From Bolinopsis microptera (taxonomy: Eukaryota; Ctenophora; Tentaculata; Lobata; Bolinopsidae), in assembly GCF_026151205.1 (NCBI RefSeq), contig NC_087077.1, positions 806,001 to 870,000 on the forward strand: 64,000 nucleotides of DNA, written 5' to 3'. The first letter of the stretch is position 1. Every line of letters begins with the position of its first letter. Position numbers and translations under genes: made by a program. Under the pieces are notes generated by a model that was given only the letters and a program-made list of their open reading frames with translations, did no database searches and was not told where the DNA came from. Positions 2,696 to 63,903 of this stretch are shown piece after piece.

Positions 2696-2738
<43 letters not shown>

Positions 2739-33500: not shown

Positions 33501-36500
33501 ACAAAATTCAACCCACAACCTTCTGACTCATAACACAAGAATTCGAAATATGATATTATATATTTAGAACAAATTTCCAATAAAAATTATGCTGGTGAAA
33601 CTCTTTTATTAAATTCAAACTTTTATTTGAACAATTCCAGACAATTTAACATCTTGCCCAGGGTTCAGAGGTAGAGATAATAAGAAGTCGAATTATTAAT
33701 GAACAATTAAATTACTGTGAGTCCACTAAAATCATTCGCATTATCACGGTTCTCTCCTAACATAGCAGTGTGCAAATACTTAACGTATCTTATCTTTTAT
33801 CTACATTATGTAAAATTTGGGTTGTTGCCAGTTTTATGGGTTTTGTAACGTTAATACCTTAATACTCTCTGTAAACCAGTGCAAAGACTTATTATTACTA
33901 AATAACGCTCCACCTTCAGGAGGATACGCTGGGATGGAATGCGGTGTAATATTATTGAAATGGAACTACTACTAACTGATAACACTTGAATAAGTTCAGG
34001 GTTTGAAGTGATAATTTGAAGAGGTCCAGTGAGAAGAAACATGGAACAAGATAAGCGGGCTCCAGTACGTTGTTTATCGGTTCACTGGCTCGTTGGACGG
34101 CTAATCATATGCTCTAATTGCTAGCATGTCTTGTACAATCGGCGTGAATTTGTTATTCAATAGGATGAAGATCTCCTAGGTGATAGGATAGTTGAGGGAC
34201 TCTTAACGCATGTTTCATGGAATTATACTACAGTAGGGAGTTAGTACCTGTTTATTAGCGACTTGAAATATGAAAGAAAAACTAAACACAAAGCTACAAA
34301 AGCAAATCAGAATTCCTGACATCATTAAAGTGTGTCACTGATCCGCAAATCAGCCAATTTAAGATTAATAACTCACATATCATAGCTAGGGGACTGAGTG
34401 ACAGGTTTAGCGCCGTAATGTAGCAACAACCGCACACTAGCCACATTGTTGTGTTGGACTGCTAGCTGGAGTGCAGTGTAGCCGGAGTTACCTGACTCGT
34501 AGTCCGGCTCTGCTCCTGAGAGGGAATCGTGTGTCACGTCATGTCACGTGGTGTGACGTCATGTCATGTGGTGTGACTTCATCTCACGTGGTGTGACGTC
34601 ATGTCACGTGGTGTGACGTCATGTCACGTGGTGTGACGTCATGTCATGTGGTGTGACGTCATGTCACGTGGTGTGACGTCATGTCACGTGGTGTGTAATT
34701 TCATATTCCATGGTGTGATATCCGGTAAGGTTTGCCAAAAGTTTTAAAGTTTCAAGTACGTGCTAAATGCTAATTGAATCTAGATGAGGAACCAATACGC
34801 TACTGGAAGGTTTAAAATGTGAATGTAACACACCAGCATTAAGAAGGATAGCCACACAGCCCTCTCCTCCCCTCCTTCTGCTGGCGAAGTGTAGTGGGGT
34901 CATTCCATCATAGTCTGCTGCATCTACTACTCCGCTATTCCTCAGCAACATCTGGTGGGAGGGGCATGTGAGGGGTATGTGAGGGGTATGTGAGGGGTAT
35001 GTGAGGGTTATGTGAGGGGCATGTGAGGGGTATGTGAGGGGTATGTGAGGGGTATGTGAGGGGCATGTGAGGGGTATGTGAGGGGTATGTGAGGGGTATG
35101 TGAGGGGCATGTGAGGGGTATGTGAGGGGTATGTGAGGGGTATGTGAGGGGTATGTGAGGGGTATGTGAGGGGTATGTGAGGGGTATGTGAGGGGTATGT
35201 GAGGGGTATGTGAGGGGTATGTGAGGGGTATGTGAGGGGTATGTGAGGGGCATGTGAGGGGTATGTGAGGGGTATGTGAGGGGTATGTGAGGGGTATGTG
35301 AGGGGCATGTCAGGGGTATGTGAATTGTGAGGGGTATGGGAGGGGTATGTGAGGGGTATGTGAGGGGTATGTCAGGGGTATGTGAGGGGCATGTGAGGGG
35401 TATGTGAGGGGCATGTGAGGGGCATGTGAGGGGTATGTGAGGGGTGTGTGAGGGGTATGTGAGGGGTATGTGAGGGGTATGTGAGGGGTATGTGAGGGGT
35501 GTGTGAGGGGTATGTGAGGGGTATGTGAGGGGCATGTGAGGGGTATGTGAGGGGCATGTGAGGGGTATGTGAGGGGTATGTGAGGGGTATGTGAGGGGTG
35601 TGTGAGGGGTATGTGAGGGGTATGTGAGGGGTATGTGAGGGGTATGTGAGGGGTATGTGAGGGGTATGTGAGGGGCATGTGAGGGGTATGTGAGGGGTAT
35701 GTGAGGGGTATGTGAGGGGTATGGGAGGGGTATGGGAGGGGTTTGTGAGGGGTATGTGAGGGGTATGTGATGGGTATGTGAGGGGTATGTGAGGGGTATG
35801 TGAGGGGTATGTGAGGGGTATGTGAGGGGTATGGGAGGGGTATGTGAATTGTGAGGGGTATGTGAGGGGTATGTGAGGGGTATGTGAGGGGTATGTGAGC
35901 TAACTGTCACAAGTCGGCATTATACCTTACATTATCCAACTTTTCTCTGTGTGTCAGTATAAAAAAGCGGACCACCAAATTAATTGTAAATGATTCAACT
36001 TAGTGGCACTTGGGCACACCAAATAGTCAAAATTCCATGGTTTCTGACATTCCTGACTTACTCACGTGGTTAAAAAAACATTTCTAACGAGCAATTTCTT
36101 CCATTCTCTTTCTATTGCACTATTTTATTTGTACGCTAGAAGGCTGTTATGCAGGTCGGTTTGATTGGATAGAAATTACAACGTATCCTTGTCAATACAG
36201 CAAACTTATTACTGACTTGTTAGTGTTTAATTAAATAATTAATTGATAAATTAATGACGTAAATGTTCTGAGAGTTATATCCTTTGCATAACATTAATGT
36301 AATGGCTCCATGGTAACGTATCAACTATCCAGTCACCTAACACAATTTCTAGGCTGATGTTTGAGAAGACACAGCTATTTGGGGATTAGGAGGGAATTTG
36401 TAAATGAATTTAAGAAATTTGCAGAAATTGTTTGCAACCGCTGACCTGGTTCAATAAGCCGCAATTGACGTCAACGCTGGTAAATAAAGTAAAATAGTTG

Positions 36501-39500
36501 ACGTACATTTTCAGCAAATCGCATTAAAAATCTATCTTTAACTTCATGATGATGAAGACACTGTTCTATAAATATCCTATCAGGTAGTGTCACGTGTTGT
36601 TGTATCAACTCTATTTACAAACACGGCTGTAAAACGGTTGTATATATTGGGTACATCGCCATGAATATTGTGCAAAATAATACACGCTAATTTTATCTTG
36701 CCCAACAAACTAGTGACCTTATTTACTGAGCTGGTTAAGCATGTATTATCCCTGTTCATTACAAATTCATCCTGGTCATGGTAAACGCACATCTTAAATA
36801 AATAAGTTTGGTGAACAATCTCAAATATAATACAAGTTAAACTATCGTATCACTTATATGTTTTTAACCCAACTCCAATCAGTTTCAAATATAATACGCT
36901 TATCAATATTAATATTGATTAATGAATGACATTGTTTAAATGTTATTACTCAATGTTACGCTCGTTATCTTTAAATGTACTCGGTTTCTACAGTGGGTTC
37001 TAATAGTTACAGTGGGTTCTAATAGTTACTTTTATATTAAGCTGAGTAACATGCCTAGTTTTATAATCTATGAAACGAACGTTAAGTTGGAACGAGAAAT
37101 AACAATTTTACTCAGTTATCGCCATTATTACCGGTATCTTTATGTTTATAAGTTATCATTTAAAGTTAACCGCATTCTGATAACAAGTTATACATTGAAG
37201 TCTCCAGAGTTTTATGGGTCCTAAATCTGATGGCACCCTGTACAGTGTACACCACTACTACCGGCCTGATGGCACCCTGTACAGTGTACAGTGTACACCA
37301 CTACTACCGGCCTGATGGCACCCTGTACAGTGTACACCACTACTACCGGCCTGATGGCACCCTGTACAGTGTACACCACTACTACCGGCCTGATGGGCGA
37401 TGGCACCCTGTACAGTGTACACCACTACTACCGGCCTGATGGCACCCTGTACAGTGTACACCACTACTACCGGCCTGATGGGCGATGGCACCCTGTACAG
37501 TGTACACCACTACTACCGGCCTGATGGCACCCTGTACAGTGTACACCACTACTACCGGCCGGTTCTAGACCGCAACCTGCCGGTTACCAACCCTTATCAA
37601 CCAGTACAACTGTATAAGGCGGATGGTAATGGTAAATTAGACCAGAGGCCAGGGTTCCTGGTTGCGGTTTTAGGTCCGGTAGTTGATCTGAAGTCAAGAT
37701 GCTAATTCTGCAGTTACAATGATTACTGGTACAGTAATGATTCGGGTTATAAACCTCATAAAGCTCAATGATTATAATATTTACCTACTTATGTTAGTAC
37801 TCCTTAAAAGTGGAACTGTTATATTATGAAATAATTCCAACGTAAAGTATGAATACTAGCGGATCCCACCAAACAGGGTTCCTAATATGATCGGTTTATA
37901 ATCCTGATGATTGTGACGTCACAGTCAGGTTATATAACCTGTATGTTACGACTCTGTGCATTCCTAAATGTAGCTGTGTAAAATGGGATCTGTCAGAAAT
38001 CAGAATACCTATTACCAGAATACCTGTTACCTTGTAAGATAAGACAACAGGTCCTGGGAAACACATTGTTAACTGTGGTAACATGTTCCTGTCAGATCAT
38101 ATTATACAGAGTTATTATTAGTGCCGTTGTCAGGAGACTGTCAAGTATAATAACAGGTAACAATGTAAATTTATATGGTATTTGGTATTTGACACCAAAA
38201 AGGGGCGCGTATTATTATAAGTCCTATCAGGTTTGGGAGTAGCAGCTTTTTTAAATGAACCCATACAATTCATGATAGAGTAACCGTTAAGAATAATAGG
38301 TTATGAGTGTTATGATAGAGTAACCGTTAGGAATAATAGGTTATGAGTGTTATGATAGAGTAACCGTTAAGAATAATAGGTTATGAGTGTTATGATAGAG
38401 TAACCGTTAAGAATAATAGGTTATGAGTGTTATGATAGAGTAACCGTTAGGAATAGGTTATGAGTGTTATGATAGAGTAACCGTTAAGAATAATAGGTTA
38501 TGAGTGTTATGATAGAGTAACCGTTAAGAATAATAGGTTATGAGTGTTATGATAGAGTAACCGTTAAGAATAATAGGTTATGAGTGTTATGATAGAGTAA
38601 CCGTTAGGAATAGGTTATGAGTGTTATGATAGAGTAACCGTTAAGAATAATAGGTTATGAGTGTTATGATAGAGTAACCGTTAAGAATAATAGGTTATGA
38701 GTGTTATGATAGAGTAACCGTTAAGAATAATAGGTTATGAGTGTTATGATAGAGTAACCGTTAGGAATAGGTTATGAGTGTTATGATAGAGTAACCGTTA
38801 AGAATAATAGGTTATGAGTGTTATGATAGAGTAACCGTTAAGAATAATAGGTTATGAGTGTTATGATAGAGTAACCGTTAGGAATAGGTTATGAGTGTTA
38901 TGATAGAGTAACCGTTAAGAATAATAGGTTATGAGTGTTATGATAGAGTAACCGTTAAGAATAATAGGTTATGAGTGTTATGATAGATTTTGCAAGTAGA
39001 CATTCCAACCATTCCAATAATGGATTAGCTAGTGATGAATATATGGTATTTGGTATTTGACACCAAAAAGGGGCGCGTATTATTATAAGTCCTATCAGGT
39101 TTGGGTGTAGCAGCTTTTTTAAATGAACCCATACAATTCATGATAGAGTAACCGTTAAGAATAGGTTATGAGTAAGTAGTAGTAAGTAAGTAGTGAGTGT
39201 TATGATGGATTTTGCAAGTAGACATTCCAACCGTTCCAATAATGGATTAGCTAGTGATGAATATCACTACTACTACTAATAGCCCTGAATTTGACAAGGA
39301 TCTTTTAATTTAACAAGCTTTCGTCGTGACATTTGGGGAGAAATTACATTAAAATCAAATAGGATGTCTATCTGTTTGATTAATTGTACTCCTCGCAGCT
39401 CCATTAAATTTGATTACAACAAAGCGACATAAAAACCTCTATTTGCCTCTTTTTTCTCAGGGGACAATAAAAGACAAATCGTAGAATCTATTGAACACGA

Positions 39501-44680: not shown

Positions 44681-47600
44681 TACCCATGAAAAGTTACCGG
44701 CTGGTGGTGGTACTAGAGTTGGTTTAATTTAAACAGACGGCTTGACCTCGCGCGCAACAACAAGCATGATTTGCACGCGTGGCGTATTCCAATGTTCAGG
44801 CAGCTACCACGTGACACAATTCAGCCAACCAGAGTACAGGAATCCGCAAAGTTAAAGTTGCAAACTTTTGATCGGCCCGAAAGGGGACTTTTCTGGAGAT
44901 TTTGATATAACTCAACAATTACGTTGTCTTGAATTTTCCTCCTGGAGAGGTAACGTTACTTTTAAAAGAGGAACATGTTACAAAAAACCGGAAGTCTCCA
45001 ACTCTTTTACTTTCAAAGTTAAGCCCCATCCGGTCAGGGTTCCTGGGTGTAGCTGGCTGACGCCGAATAGGGTGTTTTGGCCGTTCTAACTTAAGACTTT
45101 TAAGAATTAAAGCAGCCGTATTGATCTTCCAAACCTACAACTTTCAAGGGCTAGAATTCGCTGTATTTTGCCGTTAAAACACAACTTGAACTGTTTAACT
45201 TCATGATTGGGCCGTAGTTCAAAAGCAAATTGGCAAGAAGTGGTGCTCACGGTCTCACTTAACGTCACTTATCGCTCAGTTAAGAGCGACCATGGTCTTA
45301 AGCGACAGACAGCCTGCAGGCATATGATCCGAATACGAAATATCCTTGTGTTCGGCATTTAATAGCCCTAATTGGTTACTTCGTACATGTAGCTGGCTGA
45401 CGCCGAATAGGGTGTTTTGGCCGTTCTAACTTAAGACTTTTAAGAATTAAAGCAGCCGTATTGATCTTCCAAACCTACAACTTTCAAGGGCTAGAATTCG
45501 CTGTATTTTGCCGTTAAAACACAACTTGAACTGTTTAACTTCATGATTGGGCCGTAGTTCAAAAGCAAATTGGCAAGAAGTGGTGCTCACGGTCTCACTT
45601 AACGTCACTTATCGCTCAGTTAAGAGCGACCATGGTCTTAAGCGACAGACAGCCTGCAGGCATATGATCCGAATACGAAATATCCTTGTGTTCGGCATTT
45701 AATAGCCCTAATTGGTTACTTCGTACCCATGAAAAGTTACCGGCTGGTGGTGGTACTAGAGTTGGTTTAATTTAAACAGACGGCTTGACCTCGCGCGCAA
45801 CAACAAGCATGATTTGCACGCGTGGCGTATTCCAATGTTCAGGCAGCTACCACGTGACACAATTCAGCCAACCAGAGTACAGGAATCCGCAAAGTTAAAG
45901 TTGCAAACTTTTGATCGGCCCGAAAGGGGACTTTTCTGGAGATTTTGATATAACTCAACAATTACGTTGTCTTGAATTTTCCTCCTGGAGAGGTAACGTT
46001 ACTTTTAAAAGAGGAACATGTTACAAAAAACCGGAAGTCTCCAACTCTTTTACTTTCAAAGTTAAGCCCCATCCGGTCAGGGTTCCTGGGTGTAGCTGGC
46101 TGACGCCGAATAGGGTGTTTTGGCCGTTCTAACTTAAGACTTTTAAGAATTAAAGCAGCCGTATTGATCTTCCAAACCTACAACTTTCAAGGGCTAGAAT
46201 TCGCTGTATTTTGCCGTTAAAACACAACTTGAACTGTTTAACTTCATGATTGGGCCGTAGTTCAAAAGCAAATTGGCAAGAAGTGGTGCTCACGGTCTCA
46301 CTTAACGTCACTTATCGCTCAGTTAAGAGCGACCATGGTCTTAAGCGACAGACAGCCTGCAGGCATATGATCCGAATACGAAATATCCTTGTGTTCGGCA
46401 TTTAATAGCCCTAATTGGTTACTTCGTACATGTAGCTGGCTGACGCCGAATAGGGTGTTTTGGCCGTTCTAACTTAAGACTTTTAAGAATTAAAGCAGCC
46501 GTATTGATCTTCCAAACCTACAACTTTCAAGGGCTAGAATTCGCTGTATTTTGCCGTTAAAACACAACTTGAACTGTTTAACTTCATGATTGGGCCGTAG
46601 TTCAAAAGCAAATTGGCAAGAAGTGGTGCTCACGGTCTCACTTAACGTCACTTATCGCTCAGTTAAGAGCGACCATGGTCTTAAGCGACAGACAGCCTGC
46701 AGGCATATGATCCGAATACGAAATATCCTTGTGTTCGGCATTTAATAGCCCTAATTGGTTACTTCGTACCCATGAAAAGTTACCGGCTGGTGGTGGTACT
46801 AGAGTTGGTTTAATTTAAACAGACGGCTTGACCTCGCGCGCAACAACAAGCATGATTTGCACGCGTGGCGTATTCCAATGTTCAGGCAGCTACCACGTGA
46901 CACAATTCAGCCAACCAGAGTACAGGAATCCGCAAAGTTAAAGTTGCAAACTTTTGATCGGCCCGAAAGGGGACTTTTCTGGAGATTTTGATATAACTCA
47001 ACAATTACGTTGTCTTGAATTTTCCTCCTGGAGAGGTAACGTTACTTTTAAAAGAGGAACATGTTACAAAAAACCGGAAGTCTCCAACTCTTTTACTTTC
47101 AAAGTTAAGCCCCATCCGGTCAGGGTTCCTGGGTGTAGCTGGCTGACGCCGAATAGGGTGTTTTGGCCGTTCTAACTTAAGACTTTTAAGAATTAAAGCA
47201 GCCGTATTGATCTTCCAAACCTACAACTTTCAAGGGCTAGAATTCGCTGTATTTTGCCGTTAAAACACAACTTGAACTGTTTAACTTCATGATTGGGCCG
47301 TAGTTCAAAAGCAAATTGGCAAGAAGTGGTGCTCACGGTCTCACTTAACGTCACTTATCGCTCAGTTAAGAGCGACCATGGTCTTAAGCGACAGACAGCC
47401 TGCAGGCATATGATCCGAATACGAAATATCCTTGTGTTCGGCATTTAATAGCCCTAATTGGTTACTTCGTACCCATGAAAAGTTACCGGCTGGTGGTGGT
47501 ACTAGAGTTGGTTTAATTTAAACAGACGGCTTGACCTCGCGCGCAACAACAAGCATGATTTGCACGCGTGGCGTATTCCAATGTTCAGGCAGCTACCACG

Positions 47601-47837
47601 TGACACAATTCAGCCAACCAGAGTACAGGAATCCGCAAAGTTAAAGTTGCAAACTTTTGATCGGCCCGAAAGGGGACTTTTCTGGAGATTTTGATATAAC
47701 TCAACAATTACGTTGTCTTGAATTTTCCTCCTGGAGAGGTAACGTTACTTTTAAAAGAGGAACATGTTACAAAAAACCGGAAGTCTCCAACTCTTTTACT
47801 TTCAAAGTTAAGCCCCATCCGGTCAGGGTTCCTGGGT
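44681..47837 (+). repeat. Nested tandem duplication A-B-B-A-B-B-A-B-A
   Basis: Module A (about 367 bp) starts TACCCATGAAAAG at 44681, 45724, 46767 and 47470. Module B (336-340 bp) starts TGTAGCTGGCTGACG at 45048, 45388, 46091, 46431 and 47134. A-to-A distances are 1043, 1043 and 703. Copies look identical by eye, so the duplication is very recent or an assembly artefact. A carries GCGCGC and CACGTG motifs. The repeated 73-codon frame is shared by copies and shows no known domain. Confidence 0.95.
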
Positions 47838-49109: not shown

Positions 49110-50108
49110 TTTGATTGAAATAAATTTTCGTGCACATACAGAATGAATGGTTAATAATTTAATATATATGTAGACCAAGCTCTGTGCACGGGATGCTTCC
49201 TGGAAGAATCCAGTTCTTTTAGCGGGGCACCCTACCTAAAGCCAAATTGAGATATAATAATCATATTCCTAGGGAAATAATCAGAAATCGAATACCAATC
49301 AAATAATATGATATATAGGAGTAGTAACCATATTTACTATGCAAAATGCCCCAACCTCATAGTGTAAATTTATATAAAATTCAAATTCCATACCACCACT
49401 AAACCCCAACATAACAGTCAACACAACATCCCAAGCAAAATTAAATAACTTCTTATATACTATCATACTACAAATTAATTAAACATTTGAAATCTGTTAA
49501 CCAGAGAATAAATTTCTAAACCTAATGCAAGTGAAATAATTTAGATGCAATAATGAATGCCTAATATGAGTATCATCTGTCAATGTCCTTGTAGAACAGT
49601 CTGTACAAGAGATATGAGTAACTAATATAGAAGGGAAAAAAAACAAAAAAAAAAACAGGAAGTTGTCGTCTGTTGGAAAATAAATAAAATATCTAGTATA
49701 TAAATTAGAATATAAAATAACATTCGGTCAATGTGTCGTCAATAAACTGTACAATTATCAAATGTTAAAACTGTACTGGGTGATACAGTCACCAAAAATA
49801 AATACTAAGTATAATAAGTTAATAAATTAAATGTGGTCTGTAAAACTACCACTAGGTATAATAGGTCAATAAATTAAAAGTGGTTTATAAAACTACCACT
49901 GTGCAAACCCCTTCTCCAGTTAAAACATGTCAGTCATGTGCAGAATCAATCAGAATGGTAAGGTGGTAAAAAAGGGAATATCCTTTCGACACTTCAATTA
50001 TATATGCCTCAGATTTAAAAGAAATAGAAGATACTTAGTTATCGTCGACTATGATTGCAGTGTAAAATTTGTCATATGAATTGTCGACGGTATAATTAGG
50101 GTCTGTTG

Positions 50109-52628
50109 TTATAGATGAGAGTAGCTGTTTCTTATACGAATCACTAAAGCTTTTAACATCGGGCAGATTTCGTAGATCTGTTGGAACATTATTCCAACAT
50201 TTTGCCCCCAAGTATTGAAAGTTTTTATGTGATGTTGATCTATTAACATGAATAGGTTGCAGCTTTCGCCGCTCCTACTACCTCCTGATATGTAACTAAA
50301 TTTGTTCATAAAGTTTGTAGGACAATTGTCATGGATGATTCTAAACATATAATTTGACAGATGGAGTTGTCGTCTAAGATGGAGTGGTAACCATTTCATG
50401 TCTCTATAAACATTAAGGCTGCTCTCTGTTTGTGGAACGTTGAGAGCTATTTTGGCTACCTTTTTGTACAGAGTGTCAAGTTCAGCAAGTTTTGTCTTGC
50501 CAGCTCTACAATAGATCGTGTCTAAATAATCGAATTGTGGCAACATGAGTGCATTGGCAAACATTTTCCTATATTTAATGGGTAGCAGTGCTTTACTTCT
50601 ATACATGGCACCAATTCTCTTCATGACCTTCCTAATAATATAATCTACATGGCTTTTGAAGTTTAATTTACTATCTAGAATGAGGCCAAGATATTTTGTC
50701 TCTTTGCACTCCTTGATTGTGAAAGTAACCTCATCACATTCAATGGTTAATTCATCATGTTTATCAACAGAATCAAATAATAGGAATTCAGTCTTCTTTT
50801 CATTGAGTGATAACTTATTAACACTGAGCCATTTAAAGATTGTCATAAGTTCTATTTTCATGTTTATAAATGTGCTTCTGCAGGTTTGATCAAAGAATAG
50901 TGCACCATCATCTGCAAATAGAAAGGGCTTAGATAGGTTACAGGCATAAATGATGTCATTTATGAAGATACTAAATAATATAGGCCCAATGATGCTTCCT
51001 TGTGGTACACCACTCAGAACTTCTAAAAATGAGCTTAGTTTGCCATTAATCCTTGTGCATTGATATCTACAAGATAAGAAGTTCTTAAACCAGGTTAAAG
51101 CAATGCCACCAATTCCATAATATGCCAATTTTTGAAGCAATATTTCATGATTCACTGTGTCAAAGGCCTTCTTAAGATCAAGAAAGATGATTCCTGGTTT
51201 ATAAGACTTAGATTTACTCATATATATTTCGTCCATCAGATCGTACATCAAATAAGTTGTGGAGTGATTTTTCCGAAAGCCATATTGATGCCGGATGAAA
51301 AGTTTGTTCTCTTCCATGTAATCAGTGAGTTGCTTGCCGACAAAGTTTTCTATAAGTTTTCCTACAAGTGGAAGGATGGATATTGGCCTGTAATTATTAG
51401 GATCATCTTTCATTCCTGCCTTATGGATGGGAGTTACTCTAGCTTTTTTACAAAGGGTTGGTACAACACCTGTATTAAGGCTCAAATTGACAATATGGGT
51501 CAGTGGCTCAACTATGTGTGGTACAGCTTGCTTAAGTAAAAATAGAGGCACATCGTCATATGAGGCCTTGTCATTCTTGAGCGTTTCGACATACATTAGG
51601 ATATCAGTTTCATTTATTTCTTGGAATCTATCAAATGAGATGTTAGAAGTTCTAGGAGGTAAAAAATCAGTAAAACTAACTCTTTCAATATTGGGGGCCT
51701 GATTTTGTAATCTTGATCCAACATTTGCAAAATGAAAGTTAAATAGCTCAGGATCATTCTCATTGATAGTTTGACAATTAGTTGTACCAGGGGTCATATT
51801 TGATGCCAGTTTGATAGTTTTCCATATCCCTTTAAGATCATTCTTGGCACTTTTAACTTGTAGATCATCGATTACATTAGCCTTTTTGCAGGTTTTAGCT
51901 AATTTATTTCTAATATTTCTCTGAATCTTGTAGCAATCCCAGGCCTCATTACACTTTATACATTTGCTACATGTACCACATTTATTGCAATTTCCATTGT
52001 CTCTCTTATCCTTCTTTTTACGGAATTTCTTTAGAAGAAAATGTGTATGATTAATGGCATTTAAAAGTTCAGTAGAAGGTTTATGTATGAACTTTTCATG
52101 CCTTTCTATGGTCTTGCAAGGGAAGAAGGTTGCATATGCCTGTTCAATATGATGACAAAGGCCAGCAGTGATAGCTTCAACATCTGTACTTTCCAATAGT
52201 GGACTGTAATCAGAACAGGTATCTAGATAGTCTAAGAATTGTTTAACATTACGTTTACAATGATTTCTAATTTCAACCTTTTCAAATTTAGGAGCTATAG
52301 GTACTTTACAATCTATCTCACACATAATAGCTTGATGATCCCCAATACGTTCATCAAGAACAGAAGATTGAACAAAATCTGCATAACAGTTAGTGAATAT
52401 TACATCAATAGTAGTCTGGGTAAAATTGTCTCCACGTTTAGCAACTCTAGTTATCCCTTGAATGGTTTGAACTAGATTGTAACATCTCAAGGTCATATCT
52501 AATTTTTTTCCCTGCTCTTGCCGAAGGCAAAAAGATCGTAGGGAATAAGTAATGGGGTTTGGATATATGAGGTGGCCCGACGGTCCTACGGTGATGACAA
52601 AAGTCTGCTCCTTCGCAATATAGACCAC
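50109..52628 (-). CDS. LINE ORF2: end of APE endonuclease plus reverse transcriptase
   Basis: 839-codon frame. The first roughly 40 residues come from the inserted segment and are not element sequence. Residues about 40-105 hold the C-terminal half of an APE-type endonuclease (TTIDVIFTN and IGDHQAI, carrying the conserved D and H). The reverse transcriptase follows: NNYRPISILP, YGFRKNHST, IIFLDLKKAFDTVNHEIL, GVPQGSIIGPILFSIFINDI and the catalytic FADD at residues 571-574. A C-terminal region with a CxxC-rich linker between EN and RT (NKCGTCSKCIKC) precedes the palm. The RT core is intact by eye. Because the endonuclease is split, this copy probably cannot retrotranspose autonomously. Confidence 0.85.
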   Translation of the reverse strand: MVYIAKEQTFVITVGPSGHLIYPNPITYSLRSFCLRQEQGKKLDMTLRCYNLVQTIQGITRVAKRGDNFTQTTIDVIFTNCYADFVQSSVLDERIGDHQAIMCEIDCKVPIAPKFEKVEIRNHCKRNVKQFLDYLDTCSDYSPLLESTDVEAITAGLCHHIEQAYATFFPCKTIERHEKFIHKPSTELLNAINHTHFLLKKFRKKKDKRDNGNCNKCGTCSKCIKCNEAWDCYKIQRNIRNKLAKTCKKANVIDDLQVKSAKNDLKGIWKTIKLASNMTPGTTNCQTINENDPELFNFHFANVGSRLQNQAPNIERVSFTDFLPPRTSNISFDRFQEINETDILMYVETLKNDKASYDDVPLFLLKQAVPHIVEPLTHIVNLSLNTGVVPTLCKKARVTPIHKAGMKDDPNNYRPISILPLVGKLIENFVGKQLTDYMEENKLFIRHQYGFRKNHSTTYLMYDLMDEIYMSKSKSYKPGIIFLDLKKAFDTVNHEILLQKLAYYGIGGIALTWFKNFLSCRYQCTRINGKLSSFLEVLSGVPQGSIIGPILFSIFINDIIYACNLSKPFLFADDGALFFDQTCRSTFINMKIELMTIFKWLSVNKLSLNEKKTEFLLFDSVDKHDELTIECDEVTFTIKECKETKYLGLILDSKLNFKSHVDYIIRKVMKRIGAMYRSKALLPIKYRKMFANALMLPQFDYLDTIYCRAGKTKLAELDTLYKKVAKIALNVPQTESSLNVYRDMKWLPLHLRRQLHLSNYMFRIIHDNCPTNFMNKFSYISGGSRSGESCNLFMLIDQHHIKTFNTWGQNVGIMFQQIYEICPMLKALVIRIRNSYSHL

Positions 52629-53450
52629 TCCCCTATAATTATGTGTATAAAAGGAGGCAATTTTGCGCGCGCGACGCCAGCTATGTGTTAATTAATTACA
52701 GGCATAGCAACCAGTTTTAGGTGCTTGACGACTGTTACACAGGTTTCCATCGGGTTGCAATTTACTCTAATTCATTAATATAGCATATTAGTCATCTGAG
52801 CGGATCAATCATCAATACAAGTGTTTAGTTATTTTGTTGAAACAAGCTTAATAAATTACCGAGTGATAAAATTCAGCAAGTCGAAACAAATTAAATTATT
52901 ATATCAACTGATAAACTCGTGGCTGATTATTTAACAGTTTATCGAAACTGAATGGTAAAAAGCGATTACATATTTAAGAACAGATGTTACTTTACATTTA
53001 CATTCAAGAAGCAACTAAGATCAAGATTGCGGTATAGTATGCTTTTAAAGAATCCTATATAGTCGATGGTGCTGTAGATGTGTCGAGTAAGCATCAACAT
53101 GTATTAGTTTATGTTAGATACAAATAATAACTAAGATTAGACAGAATATTTTATTACAGTCAATAAAGTTGGCATACGATGCAGTATAAATATGACGTGA
53201 CATGATCATACGCATCGTTAACAGTAACACGAAACAAAACCGCGCAACATATGAAATGATCTACAACCAAACCACATATAGAATATAGATCGACGGCGAC
53301 ACCTAAGATGCGCGCAGAATTTTCAAGTTCTGCACGCCTAATATAATGAAAACGATTATCACGTGCGCCAAACACCACTCTGGGATACAAGTAGAACAAT
53401 TACATTGTAGGCAGTAGGGAAATTTAATCGTGCGTGGTGTTACCGCGGCG
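52515..53450. mobile_element. Foreign segment splitting the LINE endonuclease
   Basis: The endonuclease reads through NISSTQYKQEF near 53450 and resumes at KKLDMTLRCYNLVQ near 52505, where a continuous protein is expected. The roughly 0.93 kb between has no recognised ORF and is rich in GCGCGC at 52660 and 53310. Near its left edge is a small hairpin, TCTTGCCGAAGGCAAAAAGA. Clear terminal repeats or target-site duplications were not identified, so its class is unknown. Confidence 0.6.
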
Positions 53451-53966
53451 AAATTCTTGTTTGTACTGGGTGGATGAGATATTATTCTGGTCAATGTTTA
53501 TATCCCCAATCCAGATAACCTTTTTCCCATTCAATTTTTTCATGCAAAAATGAATGTATTCAATAAAGTTATCAACACTGCAATAATTTCCAGAGCGATA
53601 GAAGCAGCAAACATTGATCTTGCTATTCTTAAGCTTCACCCATAATGCTTCAATGTTATCAAGCTTACTATCCATAATTAATTCTGTGTAAGCTAGTTTT
53701 TTGTTTATCATTAAGCCACAACCACCCCTAGAACTGTTTGGCCTGTCGCATCGCATAAGGTTGAAGGAGGAAGGAATATTTATGGTGTCTGTGTCAATAG
53801 TTTCCTTAAGATTCATCTCATTTAGGGAAAGTATGTCTAATTTATGATCTCTAATAAGTTGGGAAAGTTCATTACTTTTACCTAAATTAAGAAGCCCTCC
53901 TTGAATGTTACAATGACCAATGCAGAGGTTGTGAAACCTATCAGCTGCATTATTAAAATTTGTCAT
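53424..53966 (-). pseudogene. LINE ORF2 start: APE endonuclease N-terminal half (interrupted)
   Basis: The 180-codon frame gives the first half of an apurinic-type endonuclease: GHCNIQGGLLNLGKSNELSQ (conserved N), DILSLNEMNLKE (conserved E), RGGCGLMI, a Y-R segment and WIGDINID (the GD-N motif). After YKQEF the frame runs into the inserted segment and stops. It starts 155 bases after the ORF1 stop. The remaining catalytic residues are in the ORF at 50109-52628. Confidence 0.75.
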
Positions 53967-54121
53967 CTTGTAAATCTTATTAATTCACAATGGAATGAAT
54001 AAAAGTTGTAAAGTTGTGTTTAAACTGAAAAACAGAATAAAAGCAGGTTGTATTTGTCTGGATGTCGTACTGTAAAAATAAAACTGATGGTAGGAGTGTT
54101 ATGTCAGTATTCAGCAGTATT

Positions 54122-55774
54122 CTAATGGTGTGCATGATACTTCAAGTGCCTTGCTAATTTAACTATGCCATAATCATTGAGATGGACATTATCCTCTCCA
54201 TAACTACTAAAAAATGACGATTTTCTAAAGCCTTTCTTATCACTAAACAAGAAACGATTTGTCTCGGTTGAGAGCAGTTTTACATAGGTGTATTTTCTTT
54301 GCAGATTTGATATACATTCATTGATATCTGTTATAACCTTGTTTCTGGAGAAACTCTCCCGAGGTAATAAGTTAACAATTTTAATATCAGCTCCAGGTGC
54401 CCACTTGTGAAGGAAAAGTACAAGTTTTTCAATACAATTGTTTGTAAAGTCAAGAGCTCTAGCATCACCAGAAAAACTATCAGGGCACAGAAGTTTAGTT
54501 CTCATGTTGCGAGGGCTGTTCAGGATAGAGTCCACGTCATTTGTACCACACATAAGTACAATGCTTTTCACATTATTGGTATTAAGAGTGTCTTTTCTTA
54601 CATCTGATTGAAACCGTTCATTGATTGCATTGGCTGTGGCACCAGGGTAGCTGAATACATGTGCCTCATGATGTTTGGACGATAGCTTTTCTCCCTCTAA
54701 TTTGGAGAACATACTAGAGCTAATGTAGACACACAAAGATTTACCAGAATGTTCTATTGATCTAGTCTTAGGGGCCGAGGGTTCAGTGTTCTTAACTTGA
54801 CTGGAAACATCAGACAGAGTAGATAAGGTTGCGCTGCCATCAATTAGGCGCAGAGTAATGCTTATTCTCATGGTTTTAGACTTGTCCTGGATGAGGCTGT
54901 GTTCAAAGCTGGTCTGGGATTGTCTGGTCATATTCATTATGTCACCATGGGAGAGGGTAAGGTCAGCAATATGAGCTCTAAGTTTGGACCTGAAGCTTAG
55001 GACTCTAGTAGCCCCTAAAGAGATGGTGGAGATCATGGAGCCTGGCGAAATTGACCTCTCGTCATCCGAGTGAAAGGGAATTCCTTGCTGACCATTTCTA
55101 TACTTGGTAATCATAGCACTATTGAATTTCAACTTTGGGAACTGTGAGCGTAAGTGTTCTAAAATAGACTTTAGGTAGGGATTGTCTGCTACTGGCCTTG
55201 TGTTATGAAAGCCTCCATTGTAAGCGTATGGAAAGTCCCCATAATATGCAACTGTCCTATTCTCAAACTCATGAGTATAGTGGGTTTCTATATCTAACTT
55301 GGCAGTGTCAACAAACTGAAAAACTCCTGGACTCAAATCTTGGTATGGATTGATAGAGTTGGTCACACCATTGACACCATTTACAGAGTGTTTGGGATTT
55401 TCCGAATTGATAATTTCTGCTGAATGTTCACTGTCTTCTGCTAATTTGGATAGCTCTTGGTTTAACTCAGAAACAAGATGCGAGGATGAGCTATTACTGA
55501 GGGGAACATTGATAGAATTTTCACAGTGATCAGGTACCTGGGGCAACACAGGGATAAGTGAACCACCGCTGAGGGGAACTTTGAGTGCACTGTCACTTTC
55601 TGATAATTGTTTATAGAGAATAGAAATTTGACGACGAAGACTATCATTCTCTCTTAATAGAGTTAAGCAATTTGAACATTTATCAGTAGGACGAGAGCCG
55701 TTACTGGGGAATTTAACAGAATTCCCTCGATATCTCAGATTGTAATCTCTTGAGCCAACTGGTATTCCAGACAT
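54122..55774 (-). CDS. LINE ORF1: AlkB-like dioxygenase fused to SGNH esterase
   Basis: 550 codons, intact. Residues 1-60 carry a basic start, a CxxC (33-36) and a short coiled coil. Residues about 170-312 match the AlkB 2OG-Fe(II) dioxygenase fold: FNSAMITKYRNGQQGIPFHS, with the iron-binding H235-x-D237, ISTISLGATRVLSFR, then H292 (SFEHSL) and R303-x5-R309 (RISITLR). All iron and 2-oxoglutarate ligands are therefore present. Residues about 345-550 are an SGNH hydrolase: a serine block at 352-354 (ISSSMF, with the usual GDS altered), GTND at 410-413, and D528-x-x-H531 (EDNVHLNDYG). AlkB enzymes remove alkyl groups from nucleic-acid bases. SGNH esterases are known in ORF1 of CR1-type LINEs. 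Their fusion suggests repair or demethylation of the element's own RNA or cDNA (inference). Confidence 0.85.
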   Translation of the reverse strand: MSGIPVGSRDYNLRYRGNSVKFPSNGSRPTDKCSNCLTLLRENDSLRRQISILYKQLSESDSALKVPLSGGSLIPVLPQVPDHCENSINVPLSNSSSSHLVSELNQELSKLAEDSEHSAEIINSENPKHSVNGVNGVTNSINPYQDLSPGVFQFVDTAKLDIETHYTHEFENRTVAYYGDFPYAYNGGFHNTRPVADNPYLKSILEHLRSQFPKLKFNSAMITKYRNGQQGIPFHSDDERSISPGSMISTISLGATRVLSFRSKLRAHIADLTLSHGDIMNMTRQSQTSFEHSLIQDKSKTMRISITLRLIDGSATLSTLSDVSSQVKNTEPSAPKTRSIEHSGKSLCVYISSSMFSKLEGEKLSSKHHEAHVFSYPGATANAINERFQSDVRKDTLNTNNVKSIVLMCGTNDVDSILNSPRNMRTKLLCPDSFSGDARALDFTNNCIEKLVLFLHKWAPGADIKIVNLLPRESFSRNKVITDINECISNLQRKYTYVKLLSTETNRFLFSDKKGFRKSSFFSSYGEDNVHLNDYGIVKLARHLKYHAHH

Positions 55775-55800
55775 AGTTTATCACAAAAAGATGCTACTGT

Positions 55801-56355
55801 TCGAAATTTAGTTAATGATTACAGTACCTTTGTAGCACTCCGGAGGATAAGGATAAGTGATGTCTGATAATCTTTAGGTGATAGATGGGAGTAAACTGCT
55901 TTAAAAATCGATGTCAGATCGGGTTTACAGATAGGGTCACAGGTGACAGTATAGAACCAAATTCATTCGTTGGGTCTCTTTTGAGTAGTTGACCATGGAG
56001 ACTTGATAAGGATGTTGTTGTTTAGTCGTTGTTGTTGTTGATCAAAATGTTTGCCGAAGTCTGATAAAATCAATTTTCTTTACATTGCATGATGTGGACT
56101 GATCTTGTAAGGTAATTTAAGGCACCTAACCTAACAAGCTCGACACTGTTGAAATTTGTGTGCCACGTCTACTTTACTTTGCCAGTTCATGAACTGGGTG
56201 TGCACCAGGCTTTTTGGATACAGCGTGATTTTATATAAACTCTTTCTCTAGCCAGTTGAGTTGATATCAGTTGATCATATTTCTATGTGCTTAGATTTAT
56301 GTGTAATGCTCTTCATTTATAAACGAAATTAACATCAGGTAGGTAGTCATTAATT
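55801..56355. other. Shared intergenic region between LINE 5' end and HAUS8
   Basis: Probably contains the LINE 5' UTR (55800 to about 55950) and the HAUS8 promoter. A GTTGTT run lies at 56018-56040. No clear TATA box is seen. Confidence 0.4.
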
Positions 56356-59300: not shown

Positions 59301-62300
59301 TCATTCTTAAGATTGATGCTGAGATACTTTTTCATTCAAAATACGGTATCTTCTAAATTTTTCACTCAACTTACTAGAAAATACTTTATGTAACATTTTA
59401 AATTTTTGGAAGCATTCAATATTCAGTATTCACATATCTGAATGATGAAGTATGAACCCAAAAAGTTAGTAAAACCCTACATTAATGTTGAATACCGACA
59501 TAACTGACTATTCCTCAGTTACCAGTTTGTTCAGAGTTGATGGAGTCACTGCCCAAGTTTGATAAACAGTTTGTCACCTTGTGCAGCATGTTAGATAGTA
59601 CCCGACATCACATGACTACCGTCAACATTGCCAGGTTATTATTACGTTTTACTTTGTTTTACTTATGTGTAAAGTATTGTTGTGTAATGTGTAATGTGTA
59701 AAGTATTGTTGTGTAATGTGTTATGTATTGTTGTGTAATGTATTGTTGTGTAATGCGTAAAGTATTGTTGTGTAATGTGTAAAGTATTGTACCATAGTTA
59801 ATATCTGTATTAATATCAAAACCGGTTGTAAACCTTACATTCTTCCCATTCTTAAATGTTTCTACATTTCTCCGCACATGTAAACTCTACACGAAATGTC
59901 AGTAAATACACTATCTATATACTCTTATATTTGATCCTTCGAACAGCTGTTGAGCAATGAAACGCAAACATAATCTTAGCAAAATGAATATATTTCTTTT
60001 ATCTTCAGCATTTAATCAGTCACATAATCTGAGAATATCAATGGTTAGTTTGAAAATGTCAAAAATTCTCATCAAAAATGTAGTAAAGTCTCAAAAAATT
60101 AATTTAGCATCTCGTAAAAATGGAATAGTTTAAAATCGGAACAAAATTAATCGCATATACTATAATAATGTGGAGTCTGCAGTAGTTCATTAAATCAAAA
60201 AGACGCAATTCAAAAATTGATAGACTGCATATATAAACAAAAAATGGACGATTTAAAAATAAAATTCGGGACACCATGAAAAATTAACTTCCAGAAACGG
60301 AATTCACATTGTTCAGGCCAAACGGATAAAGTGTCTTCAATTTGTTAATATAAAACTGTTCTGACTTTCTAATATTATCTGGGGATGTAGAACACAAAAT
60401 ATCAAAATGGAAACTTTCATTGAAAACAGATCTCTCCCTCAAATTATGAACTGAAAAAAGATGTGCCCCTAAAACATTCTCGTCATCAAAATCTCTGTGG
60501 CTCTCAACATTCCCCTTACTACTCGCCTCTAAAATCTCATAATATTTACTGCGATGACCATTCACACGTTGGCTGAGGCTGGTGACTGTTTTTCCCACGT
60601 ATACGTTATTAACAGTACAAAGTTTGCATGTCGCGCCGTACACAATGTTGCGTGTCTTACAGTTACCACCTTGAGTTCTGACTGAGTGTCCATTATTGGA
60701 GACCATGGAATTGCCACTAACAAGGTGACAAGTTTGGCAGGGTCTGCCTTTCTTCTTCTCACCAGGTTTGGTGCATGGGTCAGTTGTTCTTGACTCTGAA
60801 CCTAAGGCAAGCTTCTTTCTCTTGAATAAAGTGTCCTTTAAGTTAGGGGCTCGCCTGGTCACCACTTGGAGTTTAGGGATCCTTTCAGGGTTCTCACTGC
60901 TCCATGTACGGCTATTTGAGATGATGTTACTGGCCTCTTTAGCCTTTTCCTTGGTTTCCTCATAGCCCGCACCGAATGTAACAATCCATGGTGTGAAAGA
61001 AGGGGGACCCTGATCCTTTGCCTTGTACTGTAAAGTTCTTGGTATCGATCTGACATCACTGATGACCTCTCTCACCATATCAGTAGGATATGAAGACCGT
61101 TCAAAAAACAACTGAAGCTCTGCCAATCTCTCATCCAGCAAGACGTCATCATTGATTATCCTTCTGTATCGAAGTGCCTGTGAGAAGACTATACTCCGGA
61201 AGGTATGTCGTGGATGGAAACTTGAGAATTCTAGATACCTGTTGGCGTCAGTAGGTTTCCTAAACAGATCTGTTGTGAGTCTCCCTCCAACAAACTTGTA
61301 CTGAATGTCCAGGAACTGAGTGAACTCCGTGATTGGTTTCACTCCGTATGTAATATCTAAGCCATAGTTATCAACCATCTTACTGCGTAATGACCCTACC
61401 CATTCTTCAAAACCAATCATAGAACCTCTCCACATACCTTGGCCCGAAATATCATCCACAAACCGATCAAGGTTCTTGAGCTCCTCTGGTCTAACAACCG
61501 GGTCGTAAACCAGACTCTTTAGGACAAAGAACAAAGCAATGTTACCGCAATCCACTGAATTGATACCTCCAGTGGGTACACCGTTAACGACCTCATACCA
61601 GTTGTCTGCATTCTTCAAGACTGCCGAATCAAAACTAAGCTGTATCAGTCCCTTCAGCCAAGTCCTGAACTCCTCAGACCAATCTGGTCTACACGACTCC
61701 ATAGCATCATCTAAGGCTGACATCACCAAGCTATGTTGCAGAGAATCGTATAGAGAAACAATATCAATACTGAAGCTGATCCAAGTATCGACTACTTGTC
61801 CGGAAGCTGCCAATTCCTCGAGTTTTATGAGAGCTGCAGTTGAATCTTTAACAAGATCTATACAGTAATCCCTGGCAAGAGGTCCCAACCACTTCCAAAC
61901 AACAAACTTATCTGATCTTGCAGTTACTCCTCTAGAGAGATCAGTCACGAATCGACTGGGTGGAATCTTTTTCTCTCTAATTTCAGTCTCAGTCAGCTTG
62001 TGAATTTTCAGTAATGGGTAACCATACGGAATATCGGGCTTGACTAGATCTGAAGTGCTCTGTGAAAGAGTGTCCCGATCAGACTTCTGAATCAAACCAA
62101 CCACACAATTAGACTGTTCACCACTTACATACTTCCGCTCCAAACCAGATGACCACAGCTCTAACAACCTCCCTCTCAAAGATCCAGTAGGATCAGTTTG
62201 CAAAGGTCTGTATCTCAAAGGGTCCTCAACTTTGGCAGAAGTGATATCCTTGATTATCTGAGGGGTGACAATGATTATCGCACCGCCCTTATCAGCCGAT

Positions 62301-63903
62301 GTTATGGCTATTAAGCCATCCTTGACAGCCTTCTTCAACCACATATACCCTTCACTCTCATAGCGGTTCATATTAGATTCAAGTTTTCTGGGCTTGAAGT
62401 TGTCTACAAAATTGACAATGTTGTCTTTTGCAGACTTGATGGCTGGGTCTTCAAAAGAAGTACAAGGAGCTGTTACTGGTTTCTTCAGTAGCTCCATAGG
62501 AACTTCGTTATCCCGTGCTGAGTTCTTAAAAACAGCTTTCCATGCTTGTTTGTTGGCAGCATTGTACCCATCTACTTTGAACTGCATCTCATCAAAATCC
62601 GGGCAGGGTATCCATCCAGGACCATACGAAAGGACCGCAATGCTATAATCCGGAATATCAATGTCTGTCAGGTTAACAACAAGATTTCTCTCAAGAGCTT
62701 CCTTGGCTTTCTTCCTCATTGCCTGCTCTTTCTTCCTGTTCTTCCTGGCTTTTGCTTTGAGCTTTCTCTTGAGCTTCTTAGCTGTGACCTTCCTTGTAAA
62801 CTGATTCACTGAAACTGCTACTACCTTCTTCTTAGGCTTCCATTCTGAAAATTTAGTGCCATCACACTCCTCTAAAAATTTCATCTTCTTTAAAAGCTTC
62901 TTCTGTTGGATGTGAAGCAACTTGCTATCTTTGATAAGTTCAGGAGAGTCAGGATAATCTCTCTGAATATCAGCAATCTGTTTCTTCAAGATGTTAATCT
63001 GCCTTGACTTGTTCTCGATAGCACGGAGGGTTGCTTTTGTTTCCACCTCCTGGAGGAGCGCACGAGCCTGTTCCTCAGGGAGAGCTTTCAAGCCACTGGC
63101 CCTTAAGGATTGGACAGGGCGCTTGGTCAACAGGCATTTCCGCAGAAGACTTCTATATACTGTGTATATACATATATCGCTATTTTGTAGAGATGGTTGG
63201 TGTTTGATTTATAATGTACTAGACATTACTGGTGTTGTGCGAGTTGTGTTGACAGGGGCGGGGCACGGAACGTTCTAGAAAATTGCAAGATCACGGATAA
63301 ATGATAGTGTTATTGACCGGTTATCATAGTTCATGAAGTGTACCTTGTACCAATAATTGACGGGTGGGTCTGGAGTGCATGACTTTAAATCAGCAGTGAA
63401 CACTGAACATGTCTGTAAAGATGGAATAATAACTTATTTAATTGTTCAGGTTAAACGACCAGCAAGTTCAGGAACTTCAATCTTCGTTAAAGCAAGTTCT
63501 AGAACTACTGAAGTCTATTTGCTGCGAAGTTTCAGACGAGAAAGGTAAAGGTCTCACTAGTATAATACAGCTGGATGTCGTTATATTATGGTGACACTGC
63601 CCTAATTCCCATCTTTTCACTGCACTTTACCTCCTGGATTGATTAATTTACACAATGAATTCTATTTTTAGACTTTAAGAATCCTGTCAAATTCGTTACA
63701 GTGCAATTTCTATTACAGAGAACATTCTGGAAAACGCACAAGAGCTCGCCCTTCTGAAGACTTGTTTCGAGGAGTCGTGCCAACAATACGAGAAGGCCTC
63801 TCGACTTGCTCGCCAGATTAAAGTTACTACCGATGAGAACTTGTTCTTAACTTCTACCTTCAGTAAGCTTGACCTCAAGGCTGATTTAGGGGAGGATCCC
63901 TGA
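56356..63903 (+). CDS. HAUS8: HAUS augmin-like complex subunit 8
   Basis: Microtubule-binding subunit of augmin, which nucleates branching microtubules in the spindle. Eleven exons join in phase to 421 codons (human is about 410): 56356-56390, 56571-56611, 57079-57162, 57280-57407, 57744-57800, 58265-58476, 58703-58850, 59131-59295, 59519-59634, 63450-63544 and 63719-63903. The N-terminal 180 residues are basic and S/T/P-rich, as in the microtubule-binding region, with PIKSKYLQSAAKRKT matching the vertebrate SRYLQYEKKT motif. Coiled coils follow. LPKFDKQFVTLCSMLDSTRH corresponds to the vertebrate segment ending LDTTRH. Alternative start of exon 3 at 57074 keeps the downstream frame but changes exon 2's frame; the phase from the ATG at 56356 favours 57079. 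Exon 1 is short and less certain. Intron 9 hosts a Penelope-like element. Confidence 0.87.
59661..59795 (+). repeat. GTGTAAAGTATTGTTGTGTAAT-type array
   Basis: Irregular tandem copies built from GTGTAATGT and AAAGTATTGTT segments, about 30 bases after the HAUS8 exon 9 donor. Confidence 0.85.
59796..63449 (-). mobile_element. Penelope-like element within HAUS8 intron 9 (outer limits approximate)
   Basis: The PLE ORF (60284-63130) occupies most of the 3.8-kb intron 59635-63449. The extent of its terminal sequences within the intron is unknown; about 490 bases precede and 320 follow the ORF. I found no obvious terminal repeat. Confidence 0.6.
60284..63130 (-). CDS. Penelope-like element protein: RT plus GIY-YIG endonuclease
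   Basis: 948-codon intact frame, antisense in HAUS8 intron 9. The N-terminus is lysine-rich (residues about 95-150). Next come ITSADKGGAIIIV (the upstream conserved PLE motif) and YPLLKIHKL. The RT core has SIDIVSLYDSL (catalytic D456), GVPTGGINSVDCGNIALFF and RFVDDI (D559, D560). A Cys/His linker follows (GRPCQTCHLVSG). The GIY-YIG nuclease is NIVYGATCKLCTVNNVYVGK (Y831 and Y844) followed by R855 and GHRSKYYE. Arrangement and length match GIY-YIG-bearing Penelope-like retroelements, which act by target-primed reverse transcription. No frameshift or stop was seen, so this copy may be young. Element ends beyond the ORF were not located. Confidence 0.92.
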   Translation of the reverse strand: MTKRPVQSLRASGLKALPEEQARALLQEVETKATLRAIENKSRQINILKKQIADIQRDYPDSPELIKDSKLLHIQQKKLLKKMKFLEECDGTKFSEWKPKKKVVAVSVNQFTRKVTAKKLKRKLKAKARKNRKKEQAMRKKAKEALERNLVVNLTDIDIPDYSIAVLSYGPGWIPCPDFDEMQFKVDGYNAANKQAWKAVFKNSARDNEVPMELLKKPVTAPCTSFEDPAIKSAKDNIVNFVDNFKPRKLESNMNRYESEGYMWLKKAVKDGLIAITSADKGGAIIIVTPQIIKDITSAKVEDPLRYRPLQTDPTGSLRGRLLELWSSGLERKYVSGEQSNCVVGLIQKSDRDTLSQSTSDLVKPDIPYGYPLLKIHKLTETEIREKKIPPSRFVTDLSRGVTARSDKFVVWKWLGPLARDYCIDLVKDSTAALIKLEELAASGQVVDTWISFSIDIVSLYDSLQHSLVMSALDDAMESCRPDWSEEFRTWLKGLIQLSFDSAVLKNADNWYEVVNGVPTGGINSVDCGNIALFFVLKSLVYDPVVRPEELKNLDRFVDDISGQGMWRGSMIGFEEWVGSLRSKMVDNYGLDITYGVKPITEFTQFLDIQYKFVGGRLTTDLFRKPTDANRYLEFSSFHPRHTFRSIVFSQALRYRRIINDDVLLDERLAELQLFFERSSYPTDMVREVISDVRSIPRTLQYKAKDQGPPSFTPWIVTFGAGYEETKEKAKEASNIISNSRTWSSENPERIPKLQVVTRRAPNLKDTLFKRKKLALGSESRTTDPCTKPGEKKKGRPCQTCHLVSGNSMVSNNGHSVRTQGGNCKTRNIVYGATCKLCTVNNVYVGKTVTSLSQRVNGHRSKYYEILEASSKGNVESHRDFDDENVLGAHLFSVHNLRERSVFNESFHFDILCSTSPDNIRKSEQFYINKLKTLYPFGLNNVNSVSGS

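Follow-up and report, generated by a model that had tools for sequence, protein, structure and literature searches.

An AlkB dioxygenase and an SGNH hydrolase combined in ORF1 of a LINE retrotransposon of Bolinopsis microptera

What is an AlkB dioxygenase doing next to an SGNH hydrolase in the first open reading frame of a retrotransposon, and is the combination a conserved feature or an accident of one copy? The question was raised by an earlier note on the 64,000-nucleotide stretch of Bolinopsis microptera DNA analyzed here (the window), which had described a frame of 550 codons at 54122..55774. We found the frame at exactly this position, intact, on the minus strand. As a control, stop-free runs reached at most 202 codons in 60 order-2 Markov sequences of 64 kb. 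The LINE assignment, the domain calls and the unusual domain combination proposed in that note hold, as judged by Pfam, fold and motifs. The analysis confirms that ORF1 is an esterase-type LINE ORF1 plus a second enzyme, and that the combination is genuine and conserved and belongs to a broader pattern.

Domains of ORF1 and the LINE that carries it

The ORF1 protein has the order helical N-terminus, AlkB dioxygenase, SGNH hydrolase. The N-terminal part contains a C-x2-C motif and a leucine-rich, coiled-coil-like helical stretch recognized by eye and in the model (residues 33–65; 55580..55678, minus strand); its helices (35–42 and 44–61) belong to a region of low model confidence and the heptad-like leucines were read by eye alone. 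The AlkB 2OG-Fe(II) dioxygenase domain spans residues 166–312 (54839..55279, minus strand), with H235, D237 and H292 as ligands and R303 and R309 for 2-oxoglutarate, all at the positions previously given. The SGNH hydrolase domain spans residues 343–550 (54125..54748, minus strand), with the catalytic residues S354 (in SSSMF), G378, N412 (in GTND, 410–413) and D528 and H531 (in DNVH, 528–531); GTND and the D-x-x-H motif had likewise been read correctly.

The AlkB domain was identified by Pfam, PDB, PHROG and fold searches and by alignment. The profile PF13532 (2OG-FeII_Oxy_2) matched residues 191–309 with an E-value of 5.5e-18 and 66.3 bits, compared to a curated cut-off of 31.2, and the PHROG family "alkylated DNA repair" matched at 1.2e-13. 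The best PDB sequence match was ALKBH2 (5e-14), and ALKBH2/3 were the sole PDB sequence matches at E-values up to 1. The NCBIfam AlkB equivalog model scored 17.3 bits, far below its cut-off of 231, and the domain is therefore not a plain bacterial AlkB. For the AlphaFold2 model of ORF1, the alignment contained 22 AlkB rows from IMG/VR contigs, chosen from 31 loci after exclusion of nine (four very long frames, two duplicates and three partial). Among the IMG/VR loci, the unaligned L010, L012, L015 and L016 have AlkB matches in frames of about 780–820 aa that are open to the end of the stretch.

The model showed pLDDT values of 83–93 per 10-residue block over residues 171–320 and a confident helix near residues 100–120, most of the remainder being of low confidence. 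In a Foldseek search with the AlkB model, human ALKBH2 was ranked first (3rzh, E 2.0e-13, rmsd 1.4 Å over 147 columns) and ALKBH3 next, with E. coli AlkB and ALKBH5 lower. The HxD...H iron site and the R-x5-R pair for 2-oxoglutarate are present on the predicted fold. Thus, both the profile match and the AlkB fold for which a check had been proposed were found. Compared to ALKBH2 and ALKBH3, which are lesion repair enzymes, the ORF1 domain has the same fold, HxD...H and R...R residues and general motif order, but the identity is only about 33% and neither ALKBH2 nor ALKBH3 has an SGNH domain. Furthermore, ORF1 has T223 in place of the N of the N-x-Y motif, a 2OG contact in ALKBH2, and lacks the proline of the PR motif. 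The substrate or the rate of the enzyme may therefore differ.

The SGNH domain is indicated by a weak Pfam match, a profile, motifs and the fold. PF13472 (Lipase_GDSL_2) matched residues 366–536 with an E-value of 2.3e-4, below the curated cut-off, and the isolated domain with 4.6e-5. A PDB search with the domain as a single sequence gave no match; a profile of four SGNH-domain sequences matched the PAF-AH-like protein 2hsj (E 8.8e-5). Modelled alone without an alignment, the domain reached a pLDDT of 50 and a pTM of 0.54, which is low confidence. A fold search with this model placed 2hsj (PAF-acetylhydrolase-like) first (E 1.1e-4). Eight of the ten top titles name a PAF-AH or PAF-AH-like protein, a GDSL esterase or an acetylesterase, one title is uninformative and one is something else, and two matches alone reached an E-value of 0.001. 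The fold search of this poor model supports, but does not prove, the SGNH identity of the C-terminal domain.

With an SGNH domain that retains the catalytic S, G, N, D and H, its Pfam score being below the cut-off, ORF1 is of the esterase type. As depicted in the main texts of PMC3905857 and PMC4120745, the esterase-type (type IV) ORF1s of CR1/L2/RTEX LINEs, such as ZfL2-1, share with it the N-terminal helices, the C-terminal SGNH domain with these five residues and the APE/RT ORF2 behind. The window ORF1 differs in having an AlkB domain in between and in block I, which reads SSSM rather than GDS. The word "oxygenase" is missing from these two main texts.

The LINE copy extends over 49115..55919 on the minus strand according to blastn breakpoints, which is the part alignable with the intact relative L040+L072, so that 55919 need not be the true 5' end. 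The two are 97–98% identical, the insertion described below excepted. ORF2 starts with an ATG at 53966, after the 155-base spacing reported earlier. The APE/RT ORF2 that had been claimed beside ORF1 is indeed there, but it had gone unnoticed that a frameshift and an insertion of about 948 bp break it. On the minus strand, its first part, the N-terminal portion of the APE endonuclease (PF03372, E 3.4e-7), is located at 53457..53966, followed by the foreign insertion at 52509..53456 (blastn breakpoints; approximate coordinates) and by the end of APE, the reverse transcriptase (PF00078, E 4.1e-36) and the C-terminal part at 50036..52508, with the frameshift near 50240. The 3' untranslated part is at 49115..50035, and its 3' end is common to two relatives. 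The L066 and L072 copies of ORF2, which are intact and matched by PF03372 and PF00078, lack the insertion; intact ORF2s in relatives are 991 aa long. An AATT target duplication was rejected for the insert, since the joined reading differs from the intact relatives and the blast breakpoints are elsewhere. Due to the insertion and the frameshift, the window copy is nonfunctional as it stands, with ORF1 open. Self-comparison of the window gave no long direct repeat around the LINE copy. With APE and reverse transcriptase in ORF2 and no LTR, the element is an APE-type LINE of the CR1/L2/Jockey superfamily; its position is presumably within CR1/L2, based on the C-terminal motifs of the reverse transcriptase.

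Copies, selection and exchange of ORF1

We searched the genome assembly (264,652,675 bases, 264.65 Mb, in 232 contigs) with the ORF1 protein and obtained at least 82 matches (79 of 812 candidates scored). Sub-family 1, which includes the window copy, contains 22 full-length open ORF1s and another full-length one with a single stop, all 96–100% identical. Sub-family 2 contains 16 full-length open ORF1s that are 64–66% identical to the window ORF1, and older, broken relatives are present at 42–49% identity. All 46 scored matches to ORF2 (of 6554 candidates) were at least 97% identical. A complete open ORF2 adjoins 15 of the 22 and 8 of the 16 full-length ORF1s in the two sub-families, at least 23 of 38, with a spacing of 158–159 or 138 bases, stop codon included. 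The broken ORF2 of the window copy would agree with a one-off chimera or pseudogene, but together with an assembly error these readings are ruled out with near certainty by the at least 82 matches, the 22 and 16 open frames, the two sub-families and the purifying selection.

Conservation was analyzed in an alignment of 27 open, full-length ORF1s, which comprised the 22 of sub-family 1 and five of the 16 of sub-family 2; the choice of open copies favours conservation. All 27 sequences share H235, D237, H292, R303, R309, Y225 and R173, together with the GTND and DNVH motifs, and 26 of them retain the three final residues of SSSMF (one gap). Between the window copy and L066, the AlkB domain showed a dN of 0.110, a dS of 1.03 and a dN/dS of 0.106, as compared to a dN of 0.234 with saturated dS for SGNH and a dN of 0.48 for residues 1–165. 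The pN/pS values of AlkB, SGNH and the N-terminal part were 0.17, 0.33 and 1.06 within sub-family 1 (231 pairs), and 0.32, 0.47 and 2.0 within sub-family 2 (five ORF1s, 10 pairs), respectively. Since both dN and pN/pS are lowest there, AlkB is the most constrained part of ORF1 in the window family. Copies that keep both domains with dN/dS below 1, which had been named as a check, thus exist in number. Between the two sub-families, the dS of AlkB is lower than that of the rest of ORF1, and past exchange within AlkB is therefore possible.

The ORF1s and ORF2s have different histories. Across ORF1, the identity between L040+L072 of sub-family 1 and L066 of sub-family 2 is 52–85% per 150-base window, but it rises to 96–100% at some point in the first approximately 140 bases of ORF2 and stays at that level as far as the 3' end; for ORF2, dS is 0.03–0.16 by region and the amino acid identity is 98%. 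The ORF1 pair thus diverged long ago, whereas the common ORF2 is of recent origin, and the ORF1/5' module has therefore been swapped between elements. Similarly, the same ORF2 start adjoins the ORF1s of L079 (646 aa) and L095 (613 aa), which are 53–68% identical by domain. Reticulate evolution of ORF1 is known in LINEs of the CR1/L2/Jockey superfamily, according to the available part of PMC4120745. No relatives were found in viral_contigs and genome_contigs with the whole ORF1, nor in viral_contigs with SGNH or ORF2, and phage and plasmid records (3 and 53 records) matched the AlkB domain only, at less than 60% identity.

AlkB and SGNH in other mobile elements of the genome

The search of the genome with PF13532 gave at least 151 matches (150 of 587 candidates scored). 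Among the 149 rows listed, which include window-family copies and host genes, the frame is at least 300 aa long in 145, at least 500 aa in 113 and at least 1000 aa in eight. We examined 30 loci, three further AlkB stretches (L105–L107) and three flanks (L103, L104 and L108), and derived the layouts by reading motifs and by scanning the main AlkB frame at 18 loci with Pfam. In layout (a), L079 and L095 have a helical N-terminal part, AlkB and SGNH as in the window, and L079 is followed by an open APE/RT ORF2 of 998 aa (L104). L105 also has AlkB followed by SGNH (PF13472, E 0.001), and the stretch covered ends before the downstream frame. In layout (b), a PHD-like finger precedes AlkB and SGNH (L086, L106 and L107), every PHD match being below the cut-off. 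The following APE frame of L086 and L106 also starts with a PHD-like finger, for L107 the downstream APE was recognized by eye, and the stretches covered stop short of the reverse transcriptase; the SGNH domain of L106 was recognized by motifs, with no Pfam match. In layout (c), a second LINE type, AlkB is followed by a coiled coil and SGNH (L089, L092 and L099), the latter identified by motifs plus a PF13472 match of 0.0078 in L092 only. Behind L099 lies an APE/RT ORF2 of 1191 aa that belongs to another type (L108, RVT_1 9.5e-28).

Layout (d) is found in a Helitron on contig C10 from approximately 16874343 (L094, 1–3399, and L103, 1–7601). A single frame of about 3,400 aa encodes SGNH, a proline-rich part and AlkB before DUF6570, Helitron_like_N (3.6e-22) and PIF1 helicase (7.3e-22). 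Its SGNH and AlkB part is also present in L077, L091 and L096, the downstream parts of which are outside the stretch covered. L101 has AlkB and no SGNH within the stretch covered, and L097, a short frame, has AlkB alone. Two loci are host genes, namely ALKBH2 (L073, PDB E 3.9e-60) and ALKBH3 (L074, 2.5e-39). At L075, an ALKBH3-like frame (1063–1950, plus strand; 1.6e-27) lies about 700 bases upstream of an SGNH frame (2662–3438, plus strand; PF13472 3.3e-4), and the two represent either a host gene or an element in decay.

Selection on AlkB extends to these elements, although dS is near saturation in several of the dN/dS comparisons. The AlkB dN/dS was 0.127 between L079 and L095, and in the second LINE type (L089 versus L099) it was 0.055, as compared to 0.128 for SGNH. 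Two comparisons of Helitron copies gave 0.177 and 0.155 for AlkB and 0.15 and 0.117 for SGNH, which is thus slightly more constrained there. In an alignment of AlkB domains, the distal H is present in 17 of 17 element rows; HxD and R...R are also in all 17, but the rows were cut by those motifs, and the distal H is the unforced check.

The ligands bear on whether catalysis matters. AlkB might serve for nucleic-acid binding, taking the place that an RRM has in other ORF1ps, with catalysis incidental. Such a binding module would fill a gap, since esterase-type ORF1ps in RepBase are described in the available part of PMC3905857 as having no structural RNA-binding domain. However, binding alone would not need iron and 2OG ligands, and these are invariant in all 27 open ORF1s of the window family and recur across the element rows. 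We consider this reading quite unlikely.

A tree of 29 AlkB domains, from which four near-duplicate rows (three Helitrons and one LINE) had been dropped, placed layouts (a) and (b), L105 and the Helitrons in one clade with a support of 100/99, apart from host ALKBH2 and ALKBH3. In this tree, LINEs and Helitrons can be said to share one AlkB lineage. The window AlkB is separate from the host genes and not an ALKBH2 orthologue, since host ALKBH2 groups with human ALKBH2 and the window AlkB elsewhere (100/99). The rows of layout (c) are outside the LINE–Helitron clade, and several branches are long. The trees suggest an independent AlkB capture by the second LINE type; a single clade of all element AlkBs was not rejected by the AU test (p 0.753; constrained tree 4.7 log units better). 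For Helitrons outside the LINE AlkBs, as opposed to nested among them, the AU test gave p 0.453.

SGNH domains were already known in LINEs, in LTR and Penelope-like elements and beside fish Helitrons, as reported in the available parts of PMC3905857, PMC5408684 and PMC4021074. The fish texim genes (PMC4021074) resemble the Helitron described here in that an SGNH hydrolase is associated with a Helitron, but texim is a neighbouring multi-intron gene, whereas here SGNH and AlkB are in one frame of some 3,400 aa with Rep and helicase. The GDSL ORFs common to bdelloid LTR and Penelope-like elements (PMC5408684) likewise indicate a pool of accessory enzymes across unrelated elements. The term "AlkB" is missing from the available parts of both papers, and among the open-access papers listed for our queries, none reports an AlkB domain in LINEs or in Helitrons. 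It is possible, if on balance doubtful, that AlkB and SGNH constitute a two-enzyme accessory module, perhaps a nucleic-acid "eraser" pair, found in different domain orders in at least two LINE types and in Helitrons and spread genome-wide because the two activities cooperate on single-stranded RNA or DNA intermediates of transposition.

Candidate roles of AlkB and other features of the window

The explanation that we tentatively prefer, at somewhat less than an even chance, is that AlkB removes methyl groups that block copying from the element's own single-stranded intermediates. The ORF1 protein would coat the RNA of its own element, and an ALKBH2/3-like AlkB would oxidatively strip methyl groups from the pairing face of the bases (m1A, m3C and the like). 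Such groups, from damage or host enzymes, would halt reverse transcription; nascent cDNA may also be cleaned. The SGNH domain would act as in other LINE ORF1ps, in a membrane or acyl-ester step, and the Helitron AlkB would perform the same cleaning on single-stranded DNA. cDNA synthesis by reverse transcriptases is hampered by modified bases, according to the available part of PMC12140624. The presence of AlkB and SGNH in a Helitron fits the cleaning idea, since Helitrons move through single-stranded DNA. We count in favour the ligands in 27 of 27 ORF1s, the low dN/dS of AlkB, the likeness to ALKBH2/3, the intact ORF2 partners and the Helitron pair, and against it T223 and the missing PR proline, the near-saturated dS, the possible exchange within AlkB and the Helitron SGNH domain, which is at least as constrained as AlkB. 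A further point against is that LINEs and Helitrons, to our knowledge, normally move without AlkB.

AlkB could instead act as an anti-silencing eraser, taking off a regulatory mark of the host (m6A on element RNA or 6mA on DNA) that would otherwise lead to decay or repression of the element. An AlkB domain from Ty3/Gypsy elements of Phalaenopsis orchids binds RNA and demethylates in vitro, and m6A reduces endogenous retrovirus RNA in mouse stem cells (both from the available part of PMC9289625). The orchid elements are thus retrotransposons with an AlkB of demonstrated demethylase activity, but they are plant LTR elements with a separate ORF of the m6A-demethylase type, in contrast to the ALKBH2/3-like domain fused to SGNH in a LINE ORF1. 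In human cells, the m6A writer METTL3 aids L1 and ALKBH5 suppresses it (available part of PMC7873242), so that erasure of m6A need not benefit a LINE. The window domain is nearest to ALKBH2/3 by both sequence and fold, not to ALKBH5. The earlier note had proposed that methyl groups are removed from RNA or cDNA of the element, which is plausible; of the two functions it offered for this, repair suits ALKBH2 and ALKBH3 as the nearest named relatives better than anti-silencing does. The eraser reading appears unlikely.

Repair could also be directed at 3mC, a by-product of host cytosine-5 methylation on silenced elements, in DNA copies or in single-stranded replication or cDNA intermediates. DNMTs yield 3mC as a by-product, and 3mC is linked to ALKBH2 repair. 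The ALKBH2-like fold is consistent with such a role, as is a CpG observed/expected ratio of 0.51 over the window element (49115–56075) and 0.37 in ORF1, compared to 0.61–0.83 in five other stretches of the window, which may include mobile elements. Among the 22 ORF1 copies, C>T/G>A differences were found at 14 of 1056 site-copies at CpG and at 58 of 13487 elsewhere (odds ratio 3.1, p 6e-4, with shared ancestry ignored). The low CpG content and the approximately threefold excess of CpG transitions provide a hint that the elements may be methylated at cytosines. However, CpG depletion alone is weak evidence of methylation, the Helitron stretch L103 is little depleted (0.615), and the ORF1 protein is expected on the RNP rather than on chromatin. 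We regard 3mC repair as improbable.

Under the preferred reading, cleaning of single-stranded intermediates, as under the others that involve catalysis, strong purifying selection on an accessory enzyme in unrelated elements would mean that methyl groups on intermediates or host targets matter to transposition. The elements provide a natural system for identifying the kind of nucleic-acid methylation that keeps LINEs and Helitrons in check in an early-branching animal. AlkB joins the short list of enzymes common to mobile-element classes, and it is repeatedly paired with an SGNH hydrolase, an enzyme of so far obscure role in LINEs.

The window contains other features. An open frame of 948 aa at 60284–63130 (minus strand) is Penelope-like by eye, with reverse transcriptase motifs and a GIY-YIG-like C-terminus, no clear Pfam match and a CpG observed/expected ratio of 0.46. 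An Rfam search gave no match. Two neighbouring MACPF genes on the plus strand (15445–16995 and 18239–20191) represent a tandem duplication, with an identity of about 80% over 1.4 kb; the MACPF protein had no match in a PDB search. Repeat arrays are located at 44681–47837, with stretches identical over hundreds of bases, and at 32236–32967, 38272–38987 and 35008–35910, the last of which is a reading frame born of repeats.
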